NCBI GenBank assembly: GCA_951394405.1
Contig: OX596338.1
Location: 186,001-250,000, forward strand
Length of the DNA stretch: 64,000 nt
DNA from: Coprinellus micaceus
Lineage: Eukaryota > Basidiomycota > Agaricomycetes > Agaricales > Psathyrellaceae
Direction of reading: 5' to 3'
Shown: piece after piece, positions 14,912 through 18,710 of the stretch
How the letters are laid out: each line of letters opens with the position of its first letter
How positions within the stretch are numbered: the stretch's first letter is position 1
Made by a program: the position numbers and the translations under genes
The notes under the pieces: model-generated
The model's input: only the letters and a program-made list of their open reading frames with translations
The model's database searches: none
Told to the model about the DNA's origin: nothing

Positions 14912-15872
14912 TGATAACATGGAAGGATACACCCTAAGGTGTTTCCGCAATGCGTCTAGCCTATGCCCAAGGTCGCATTGCTGCAACATGCGAGTTACAT
15001 GCACCTTTTTGAACACATGGTGACTGCACCGCGTGGCATTCATAAGAATGTGCCTCGCTACAGTGACACTAGTTACTCCTATCTCTGAGATCATTTCCTA
15101 AGCAAATGACCTGATTTAAGGCGGAGGTTGCTTGGGCCTTTTGGATTTCCAAATCAGACATTTGGACTGACTAAATCAAAAATGAAAATCATGCTGGTTA
15201 TTATTTAAATCACTGCCTTTGGCTTGCCAGATCAGGGTTAAATCACACATTTGGTAGGCAAAATCCCACACTCAGAATAGCAAATCATGCCTTCGGTTGG
15301 CAAAATCATGCATATTTTCAGCATTCCAAATCACTCATTCCATTAGCAAAATCACAGCTTCAGCATTCCAAATCACATATTTGGACATTCAAATCATGCA
15401 CCTGGCTGGTGAAAATCAAACATTCGGTCAGTGAAATCACACATCAGGTAACCAAAATCACATCATGGCTTGCTGAAATCATGCATCAGATGATTGAAAT
15501 CACACTTTGGCTTGTCAAAATCATGCATTCAGTTGCTGAAATCATGCATTGGCTAACCAAAATCACACATTGGGTTGCTGAAATCTTGCATTGGCTGACT
15601 GAAATCACACATTGGGTTGCTGAGATCATATATTGGGGTGCTGAAATCATGTATTGGGTGACTGAAATGACCCACTGGGCTGCCAAAATCACTGTTTGGG
15701 TTGCCAGAATCACTGTTTCAGAATTAAATCAAAGATGCCAAATTTGAAATCACCCTTTCAACCATCAAATCAGAAACCTTGAATTTCAAATCACTATTTC
15801 AAATTGTGAAATCATAATCTTTCTGAGCAAAATCTTGACATGCAGGATTGAAAGGTAAAACAAAAATCATCC
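14912..15872. repeat. Left inverted-repeat arm with AAATCA sub-repeats
   Basis: The arm pairs with 17209-18710 minus the TRIM. Between about 15170 and 15800 it is a string of degenerate units of roughly 21-22 bases. Each starts with AAATCA(T/C) or AAAATCA(T/C), followed by (G/A)CATT(G/T)GG and a short tail such as TTGCTG, CTGACTG or CTAACC. This resembles the subterminal transposase-binding repeats of CACTA elements. Confidence 0.8.
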
Positions 15873-17208
15873 ATTTATTCCACAAAATCACCCTTTTATT
15901 GCTTCAAGTCAATTTTTTGGTGGCTAGATCACAGTCTTTTTGTTTTGATTTCTTAATTTCTTCAAAACTGCTTTTTGTGTCCCACAGTCCCACATGAATA
16001 GATATCACTCTTGAATCAAACATACTAACTTCCTTGATTTTGATCATCCATGGATCCAGTCACCAATTCTCATTTGTTTCATTTTCTCTGAAAACAGAAT
16101 CTGACTTTGATTTGTACATTGGAACCTCTCAAACCTAATCCAGTGGACAGTCTGGGTTCCATGTACCACATTCTTTGCTTAGTACAAGTGGTTGAATACT
16201 GTTTTGTTTGAAAGCACTACAATTGACCGTAACAGCTAATAATACAATTTTGGATGATACACATTGATTTTCAAAGATATGCTAGGTCAAATCTGTGCTT
16301 ATTCCATGCAAGCAGATAGCATGAATCATAAATTTGAGTCTTGTTTGTCCAAGAGATCAAATTTACCAGAATTTGCTCAATTGTGGTGGCTGTGTAGGTT
16401 CCCACGCTTTATCAAACCCATACATGGATACCCACAACAATTTCATGCCACTCACAAAGAAACAGCTAAGGAAACGGGACAGTCAATCCAAAGATATAGC
16501 AGAAATGGTCCTTTGGAAACCAACAGTTCTCAAACTGCAACAACATCCAATCTTGCTATGCTCTTTAACTGGTGTTGGCTCTGTATCTTTCCCATATCTC
16601 ATCTGTTTTCCTTGGGAGTTTTTGTGTTCTAAATCATTTTTGAATCTGATTCTCACCAGTATAGTTGATTTCCCACACATGTCACCAGAGTGATCAAATC
16701 ACTGCCTTCATGAGATCATGAAATCTGAGTGCAGTTTCAATGCTTGTATTAAACCTTGATGCATTGGATGTATGTGTAGATAGCTTGTCCATATGGGCAT
16801 GTTTTACATGCATGTCAATAAACCAAAAGGTGAGAAAATTGAATTGAAATCACAAGCATTACATTAAGAGCCAACAAGTTCAGCTTTTTGGTATGTACAT
16901 TTAAAAGGTGAGGAACACATGTTACACCCAATCACAGCAGGAGACAACTGCTGTATCCCAAGGAAGGCTGCCATCCAAATCAAGGTGAATCAAAGTCACA
17001 TACAACATCATTACTTGGTTTCATCTTTGGCATTTTCCACAATTAGCCTTTGATTTGGACGTAATGTCACTATTTATCCAACATTAAGATATCTGGATAT
17101 GATTTTCATATAAAACTGTGATTTGAGAGGCACAAACATTGATTTCAGCATTATGATTACCATTGTGGCAATGGCAGTTCAGAAGAAGAATTCATATTAA
17201 TCAAGAGT
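15873..17208. other. Central region of the inverted-repeat element
   Basis: About 1.3 kb of AT-rich sequence lies between the arms. The longest frames are around 120 codons (16264-16632 and 16334-16693 on the plus strand) and overlap in different frames. They show no transposase motif and no recognisable domain. I call no gene here. Confidence 0.6.
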
Positions 17209-18124
17209 GATTTTTGTTTTACCAAGTATGATTTCAATCCTGCATGTCAAGATTTTGCTTAGAAAGATTATGATTTCACAATTTGAAATAGTGATTTGAA
17301 ATTCAAGGTTTCTGATTTGACCAAGATTTGATGGTTGAAAGGGTGATTTCAAATTTGGCATCTTTGATTTGATTCTGAAACTGTGATTTCAGCAACCCAA
17401 TGTATGATTTCAGCAATCCAACAGGTGATTTGGCAAGCCAATGTGTGAGTTCGTCAGCCCAGTAGGTGATTTCAGTCATCCAATGTGTGATTTCAGCAGC
17501 CTGGTGGGTGATTTCGCCAACTGTATGTGTGATTTCAGCAACCCAATGCATGATTTTGGCAAGCCAATGGGTGATTTCAGTCATCTGATGCATGATTTCA
17601 CCAAGCCAATATGTGATTTTGGTTATCTGATGTATGATTTCACTGACCCAATGTTTGATTTTCAACAGCCAGGTGCATGATTTGAATCTCCAAATATGTG
17701 ATTTTGCTAGTTGAATGCATGATTTGGTATGCTGAATGAATTGATTTTGTCAACCAAGTGCATGATTTCACAAACCAAATATGTGATTTGGAATGGTAAA
17801 TGTGTGATTTACAATTCTATAGGCATGATTTGGTATTCTGAATGTGTGATCTTGCCTACCCAATGTGTGATTTAACCCTGATCTGGCAAGCCAGAGGCAG
17901 TGATTTTCATTTTTGATTTAGTCAGTTTGATTTTGAAATCAAAAAGGCCTAAGCAACCTCCGCTTTAAATCAGGTCATTTGCTTATAAAACTGATTATAG
18001 TAGGAGTAACCACTCACAGTGAAACAAACATGAAAGGCACAATCATGTCAAAGGAAACGTGAATCCCCCATTGTCCCACGGAACCATGAAAGAAATATCC
18101 AGGTGAAAGCCAAACCACGAAACA

Positions 18125-18347
18125 TGTTGGAAGTGGTCAATCGACAGCCTAGACTTGATATTGGTGCAGTGCTATATGTGACTGTATCCCACACGGTGAC
18201 GAGCCTGTGTATGGGGAATGTTTAAGGCCCCATAGTATCAACATCTGCACACTGTCTATCCACAGGGTGGTAGCTCAGTGGTAGAGCGTCCAGTCTAGTC
18301 AACGGATGGTCCCAGGTTTGATTCCTGGTCACTCCAATACTTTAACA
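18125..18347 (+). repeat. Left LTR of the TRIM
   Basis: It runs 223 bp from TGTTGG to TTTAACA. It differs from the right LTR by CACACGG versus CACATGG, ATCCACAGG versus ATCCATAGG, and GGTTTGATT versus GGTTCGATT, all C/T differences. The third change falls in the B box. Confidence 0.9.
18264..18336 (+). promoter_or_regulatory. tRNA-like segment with A and B boxes, left LTR
   Basis: A box TAGCTCAGTGG at 18271-18281 fits the Pol III consensus. The B box GGTTTGATTCC at 18315-18325 has one change from GGTTCGANTCC. A D-stem (GCTC/GAGC), a perfect 5-bp T-stem (CCAGG/CCTGG) and an acceptor-like pairing (AGGGTGG with TCACTCC) can be drawn. The loop CTAGTCA would put AGT after U33, like tRNA-Thr, but the anticodon stem has two mismatches and one extra base precedes it. 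It is therefore unlikely to be a working tRNA. Confidence 0.7.
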
Positions 18348-18348
18348 A

Positions 18349-18368
18349 GTTATGAGCCCCGATGCGCG
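18349..18368 (+). promoter_or_regulatory. Candidate primer binding site (half initiator tRNA-Met type)
   Basis: One base after the left LTR the sequence reads GTTATGAGCCC, then a TGCGCG block. The complement, CGCGCA...GGGCTCATAAC, is the D-arm-side stem, CAT anticodon and loop of eukaryotic initiator tRNA-Met. Copia/Ty1-type elements can prime from such a tRNA half-molecule rather than from the 3' CCA end. The match is from knowledge of the tRNA, not from a copy in this window. Confidence 0.65.
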
Positions 18369-18420
18369 TGACCTCTGGAACAATAAAGTTCGTCCCCATT
18401 TGGCATGGCAACAGCCTGTC

Positions 18421-18433
18421 GATTGGGGGGGTG
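18421..18433 (+). promoter_or_regulatory. Polypurine tract of the TRIM
   Basis: A run of seven G (GATTGGGGGGGTG) lies directly before the right LTR, at the position expected for second-strand priming. Confidence 0.7.
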
Positions 18434-18656
18434 TGTTGGAAGTGGTCAATCGACAGCCTAGACTTGATATTGGTGCAGTGCTATATGTGACTGTATCCCA
18501 CATGGTGACGAGCCTGTGTATGGGGAATGTTTAAGGCCCCATAGTATCAACATCTGCACACTGTCTATCCATAGGGTGGTAGCTCAGTGGTAGAGCGTCC
18601 AGTCTAGTCAACGGATGGTCCCAGGTTCGATTCCTGGTCACTCCAATACTTTAACA
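18434..18656 (+). repeat. Right LTR of the TRIM
   Basis: It is 223 bp with the same ends and exact length as the left copy. It is followed at once by the target duplication AAACA. Confidence 0.9.
18573..18645 (+). promoter_or_regulatory. tRNA-like segment with A and B boxes, right LTR
   Basis: It is identical to the left copy except that the B box is a perfect GGTTCGATTCC. A box TAGCTCAGTGG lies at 18580-18590. No TTTT terminator follows immediately; the next bases are ATACTTTAACA. Confidence 0.7.
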
Positions 18657-18710
18657 AAACACAATGTGATGGCAATGTGACGCTGGATGAATAGATCCTT
18701 TCTTGTAGTG

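Follow-up and report, generated by a model that had tools for sequence, protein, structure and literature searches.

The locus at positions 18125-18656 of the window, by which we mean the whole 64,000-nucleotide stretch analysed here (G000:C5:186001-250000, from a genome of 50.34 Mb in 17 contigs), raises the question of what two short direct repeats, each carrying a tRNA-like sequence, might be: are they the long terminal repeats (LTRs) of a genuine miniature retrotransposon (TRIM), and if so, which polymerase would transcribe it and which element would mobilise it? The reading that we favour, with a probability of about 0.84 as judged from sequence features, is that this copy belongs to a putative Helenus-type TRIM family, here called Hel-1, whose LTR holds a captured tRNA-like sequence and which would be transcribed by RNA polymerase III (Pol III) and mobilised by Copia.

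The anatomy of the copy can be stated plainly. It is a non-coding LTR element of 532 bp on the forward strand, with a 5' LTR of 223 bp (18125-18347, TGTTGG...TTAACA) and a 3' LTR of the same length (18434-18656), both with TG...CA ends and differing from each other at three places (LTR positions 70, 139 and 195). The 86-bp interior (18348-18433), likewise non-coding, begins with the primer-binding site (PBS) AGTTATGAGCCCCG at 18348-18361, all 14 letters of which are complementary to the anticodon arm of the host initiator tRNA-Met (iMet) gene (L044), and ends with the polypurine tract (PPT) ATTGGGGGGGTG at 18422-18433, which has 11 of its 12 letters as in a Copia family of the same genome, Copia-A. 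The element is flanked by a perfect 5-bp target-site duplication (TSD), AAACA, at 18120-18124 and 18657-18661. A complete 532-bp TRIM with these LTRs, interior, PBS, PPT and TSD was what the original prediction had described, and every one of these parts was confirmed.

Just upstream, window positions 18016-18124 match four other genomic places on their own and are therefore probably a separate repeat; this segment lies between the Hel-1 copy and an element of about 2.9 kb (window positions ~15070-18015) in which 21-bp tandem repeats lie inside long, imperfect inverted repeats. The repeat pieces of that element are 70-99% complementary, its outermost arms lie at 15094-15159 and 17925-17990, and at five other places its end has paired inverted matches, which span roughly 2.8 to 10.8 kb. 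Its appearance is that of a DNA transposon family of foldback or TIR type.

Two direct repeats this close together could also be explained without any retrotransposon, as a tandem duplication or as two SINE copies beside a chance 5-bp repeat, and here the rest of the genome is informative. With the window LTR as query we obtained 44 genomic matches, namely 40 complete LTRs, the two arms of an inverted dimer and two fragments, and the complete LTRs resolve into 35 insertions: three with two LTRs, one of the form LTR-interior-LTR-interior-LTR and 31 solo LTRs. The TSD is perfect at 34 of the 35 and has a single mismatch at the remaining one, which excludes a chance origin; this is the genome-wide count for which the original prediction had called, and it settles that prediction's own concern about a tandem duplication next to a fortuitous TSD. 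Two pairs of insertions have common flanks and a common TSD, and since these pairs are later duplications, 33 independent insertions remain, 32 of them with a perfect TSD. A query made of the interior and a few bases of each LTR gave five matches, all within the same four interior-bearing loci. As an observation in its own right, one Hel-1 insertion beside an RVT_2 match occurs twice, inverted and about 10 kb apart (L020 and L021, G000:C8:248608-248830 and 238042-238264), which is an inverted duplication.

Element-free sites point in the same direction. When the element and one TSD copy were removed and an uninterrupted alignment of the joined flanks to paralogous DNA was sought among the loci examined, 6 of 36 Hel-1 queries gave such a site, two of these matches being duplicates of one insertion and one being only 74-78% identical; the clearest case is a solo Hel-1 LTR within a Copia-A LTR (L014). 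The TSDs and the element-free sites together rule out a tandem duplication or SINE dimer, against which the TG...CA ends and the position of PBS and PPT exactly at the junctions also speak, and we leave an origin other than retrotransposition with practically no probability. A single tRNA-derived SINE was considered and rejected as well: it would be one unit without LTRs, PBS or PPT, whereas paired LTRs, a PBS, a PPT and a 5-bp TSD are seen.

Hel-1 was probably active recently, because many of its copies are identical (the 40 LTRs comprise 19 distinct sequences, with one identical set of 13 and another of 9) and, at each of the other three loci that hold an interior, the LTRs show no differences among themselves. 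Most of its LTRs are solo (31 of 40). For Copia-A, about 4 of 40 scored LTRs look solo by spacing and by the list of RVT_2 matches, a figure from a biased sample, as the scored LTRs are the best 40 of 231 candidates and hence those closest to the query. The ordinary explanation of the solo excess in Hel-1 would be that a repeat spacing of 309 bp eases deletion between LTRs. The copy with two interiors (L010 1501-2341, G000:C3:4638215-4639055), which has three identical LTRs and one TSD, likely arose from unequal recombination. A stranger form is a head-to-head inverted LTR dimer (L065 301-700, G000:C3:3636374-3636773), in which LTR positions 3-223 are joined to 44-223, so that U5 lies at both outer ends, and which is flanked by a single 5-bp duplication, ACTCA; it suggests that integration can accept unusual cDNA forms in which each end is U5. 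One might go further and see part of the solo LTRs as direct insertions of one-LTR cDNA instead of recombination remnants, with the inverted dimer arising alongside them by that route. If a Pol III transcript is short and has no terminator, its cDNA might often stay incomplete, and a single LTR would have both of the ends that integrase needs; even so, we consider this proposal decidedly unlikely.

What, then, is the tRNA-like sequence? In the 5' LTR it spans 18264-18336, with the A box TAGCTCAGTGGTAGAGC at 18271-18287 (LTR positions 147-163) and the B box at 18315-18325 (LTR positions 191-201); in the 3' LTR it spans 18573-18645, with the A box at 18580-18596 and the B box GGTTCGATTCC at 18624-18634, at the same LTR positions. 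The Rfam tRNA model (RF00005) is covered as a whole in both, above the gathering score, with 45.4 bits for the 3' and 42.8 bits for the 5' LTR (E-values of 1.8e-6 and 9.5e-6 for the 64-kb window), and ARAGORN calls a tRNA-Thr(AGT) in each, at 18572-18646 in the 3' LTR. The D stem, the T stem and six of seven acceptor pairs are kept in the Rfam alignment. The predicted A box, B box and D- and T-stem pairing in each LTR thus held up, with the qualification that the B box of the window 5' LTR is changed by one letter (GGTTT for GGTTC) to GGTTTGATTCC.

Taken at face value, these calls could mean that the LTRs hold a functional tRNA-Thr gene and that the element spreads working tRNA genes. The structural evidence is divided: the anticodon arm deviates from the tRNA model, with 12 letters unaligned to the consensus loop in the Rfam alignment, and the Hel-1 part, when folded as a single strand, is predicted to form no cloverleaf and does only weakly better than shuffles (z -1.2, with 24 of 200 as good), whereas the corresponding part of a second family, Hel-2, is predicted to fold into a branched structure that beats most shuffles (z -1.9, with 8 of 200 as good). 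In addition, a run of four to seven Ts follows within 60 nt downstream of all 15 host tRNA genes examined (L093, which has no ARAGORN call, was left out), and no such run exists in the Hel-1 element. Working tRNA genes therefore seem to us very improbable; given the departure of the anticodon arm from the tRNA model, the sequence is probably a promoter and not a working tRNA. This suggests that where gene finders report a tRNA-Thr in genomes of this kind, the sequence can be an LTR instead of a tRNA gene. As for the parent tRNA, none stood out among 12 host tRNAs compared, a set from which a host Thr-AGT gene was absent; the highest-scoring was Ile-AAT, with 54 identities to Hel-1.

The two boxes are a regular feature of the family. 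The exact A-box plus GGTTC pattern is present in 38 of the 42 Hel-1 LTRs that span the region (the 40 complete LTRs and the two arms of the inverted dimer), the window 5' LTR being among the four without it, and paired LTRs occur at two other loci besides one with three; the original prediction had named copies without boxes or without paired LTRs as its weak point, and this is what the genome holds instead. Genome-wide, the joint box pattern has 49 matches, which by their letters are 38 Hel-1 and 11 Hel-2 sequences, against none for a control; it misses 4 of 42 Hel-1 LTRs and 2 of 13 complete Hel-2 LTRs. The further expectation that the boxes would be more conserved than the rest of the LTR proved a weak test and did not by itself favour them: with CpG sites counted, boxes vary like the remainder (0.0116 versus 0.0097 per column and copy), and the CG in the B box is altered at position 195 in 4 and at position 196 in 6 of the 40 LTRs. 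If CpG sites are excluded, one minority letter is left in 25 box columns, compared with 43 in 146 columns elsewhere (a count that includes one multi-column deletion). Given the near-equal rates with CpG sites and the shared ancestry of the copies, we do not accept conservation within Hel-1 as proof of selection on a promoter.

The second family offers a comparison between LTRs. Hel-2 was found as a 280-bp LTR with a tRNA-like sequence and the TSD CCAAC that interrupts an RVT_2 stretch on contig C13, and its anatomy is the same as that of Hel-1. A 266-base query gave 16 genomic matches, of which 13 are complete LTRs and the others are two partial copies and one 52-base match. The complete LTRs include two two-LTR elements with interiors of 61-62 bp and the TSDs CATGG and GTTGC, and eight isolated LTRs, six with a perfect TSD, one with a single mismatch and one without a TSD; the ninth remaining LTR abuts a remnant of an interior. 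For five of eight joined-flank queries, the loci examined include paralogous DNA without the element. The tRNA-like parts of Hel-1 and Hel-2 align with a score of 24.5, far beyond the mean of 5.6 (sd 2.3) and the highest value of 16 among 200 shuffles; the LTRs upstream of that part are not alignable above shuffles (10.0 versus 6.5, sd 2.3). More families of this kind may exist, as 63 of 1686 candidates from the genome-wide RF00005 search were scored. Contigs C14 and C17, for their part, share one closely packed series of tRNA matches, shifted by a fixed distance from one contig to the other, and would appear to be two copies of the mitochondrial genome.

These results bear on whether the tRNA-like sequence has any promoter role, or whether Hel-1 is an ordinary TRIM transcribed by RNA polymerase II (Pol II) in which that sequence is a mere passenger. 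There is something to be said for the latter. A TATA-like CTATAT is present in the Hel-1 LTR, so Pol II has to be considered; the altered B box sits in the 5' LTR of the window copy, the very LTR that would drive it; TTTT is found nowhere in the Hel-1 element; and in Hel-2 a TTTT stands ahead of the PBS. On the other hand, two families whose upstream LTR parts have nothing alignable above shuffles both retain the A box and the B box close to the 3' end of the LTR, and conservation around both boxes is reported for fungal and animal families in Kojima 2024 (PMC10886601). On balance we hold the passenger explanation to be unlikely, and we infer from the promoter motifs that Hel-1 uses Pol III.

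With no TTTT in Hel-1, a Pol III transcript would have to end in the flanking DNA or acquire its 3' end in some other way; downstream of the four loci that hold an interior, the first T4 comes after 59 to 792 bp. We reject the absence of TTTT as a sign of selection, for 814 of 2356 window stretches and 623 of 2000 shuffles also lack it. A read-through RNA could still work, because R is all that strand transfer requires of the 3' LTR. In Hel-2, TTTT comes just after the tRNA-like part in all 13 LTRs and could stop Pol III ahead of the PBS; among the 15 host tRNA genes the first T-run is at least T5 in 11 but T4 in the other 4, so a T4 may be leaky.

Under Pol III transcription, and by analogy with LTR retrotransposon biology for every step beyond the DNA anatomy, the life cycle of Hel-1 might run as follows. 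The internal promoter in the LTR would give a read-through RNA with the tRNA-like stretch at both ends, serving as the R region; a Copia helper protein would package this RNA and reverse-transcribe it from an initiator tRNA-Met paired via its anticodon arm; minus-strand DNA would be transferred to the 3' LTR, and the G-rich PPT would prime the plus strand; Copia integrase would then insert the product with a 5-bp TSD, and most copies would later be reduced to solo LTRs.

A candidate helper is present in the same genome. The 11-mer core of the PBS occurs 130 times genome-wide, compared with 14 for a reversed control, and among the first 30 of these places an LTR end of Copia-A type precedes the PBS at 22 and one of Copia-B type at 5, the other three being an unassigned repeat (L042), the iMet gene itself (L044) and a site with neither LTR type (L056). 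An RVT_2 match lies 3.9-4.6 kb downstream on the same strand at 18 of the 30, when 80 of the 132 genomic RVT_2 matches are compared; 53 of the 132 make up a single group at the top of the scores, their open frames reaching 1620 aa or more and their domains being free of stops. Copia-A, a young family of Ty1/copia type, has a 383-bp LTR that starts with TGTTGGAAG, TG...CA ends, the PPT ATTGAGGGGGTG and the same PBS as Hel-1. At the PPT/U3 junction both families share ATTGRGGGGGTG followed directly by TGTTGGAAG, and across that junction Hel-1, with ATTGGGGGGGTG followed by TGTTGGAAG, has 20 of 21 letters the same as Copia-A. The likeness of the LTRs is confined to the first 9 bp; the Copia-A LTR is otherwise unrelated to that of Hel-1, RVT_2 lies downstream at many of its loci, and ARAGORN found no tRNA in seven Copia-A-type loci (L035, L055, L108-L112). 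We thus see Copia-A as the likely helper, a view based on matching cis sites and short of proof because Copia-B has the same PBS and a U5 end nearer to that of Hel-1 (CACTTTCAACA against TACTTTAACA). An assignment of Hel-2 to Copia-B by its PPT was not accepted; by eye the PPT fits Copia-A and Copia-B about equally.

How do these families relate to known systems? A tRNA-like promoter in a mushroom TRIM had been proposed as a parallel invention to the plant elements, and this novelty does not stand: Helenus, comprising TRIMs with a tRNA-derived sequence in their LTRs, has already been described from fungi, animals and a plant, and among fungi from rusts, Agaricus, Coprinopsis and Amylostereum, Agaricales included, according to Kojima 2024 (PMC10886601). 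In that paper, fungal Helenus elements have 5-bp TSDs and mostly anticodon-loop primers, with iMet dominant, and are linked to Copia; their sizes range from 311 to 1263 bp; and Pol III use is described as not yet validated and the Copia helper as deduced from similarity. Among the titles and abstract openings listed in literature searches, no other paper on tRNA-like LTRs appeared. Two protein searches place the present genome with Psathyrellaceae-like Agaricales: the best named hit of one was Coprinellus aureogranulatus (32%), and the other gave Ephemerocybe angulata (65%), Coprinopsis cinerea (54%) and an unnamed best hit (75%). Judged by the 65% and 54% identities of that one protein, the mushroom is probably not one of the three already listed for Helenus. 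Hel-1 resembles this description in its length, which falls inside the published range, in its lack of coding capacity, in the tRNA-derived sequence with A and B boxes in both LTRs (one B-box change in the window 5' LTR aside), in a PBS that adjoins the 5' LTR on its inner side and is complementary to the anticodon region of iMet, in the PPT just before the 3' LTR, and in its 5-bp TSDs and many solo LTRs; a candidate Copia-like helper would be the young family with PBS, PPT and U3 start in common. By anatomy, as set against the published description, both Hel-1 and Hel-2 fit Helenus.

Two further systems, as presented in PMC10886601, offer a parallel from the 5S side. Cassandra, a plant TRIM with 5S rRNA in its LTRs, shares with Hel-1 a Pol III-type promoter within the LTR, but it is built on 5S rRNA and found in plants, whereas Hel-1 is tRNA-like and comes from a mushroom; 5S rRNA was not found in the Hel-1 LTRs, Rfam at gathering scores giving only the two tRNA matches in the 64-kb window. 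Ajax, a nemertean TRIM with partial 5S rRNA, is similar in having a small-RNA promoter in its LTR and a 5-bp TSD, and different in that this promoter is 5S-derived. What the present genome adds to Helenus is a second family, a candidate Copia helper from the same genome with a matching PBS and PPT/U3 junction, many solo LTRs, a copy of the form LTR-interior-LTR-interior-LTR and an inverted LTR dimer that has a TSD of its own. Its two families, its identical and recent copies and its one abundant Copia with matching PBS and PPT make it a compact case in which both the helper and the polymerase are directly testable.
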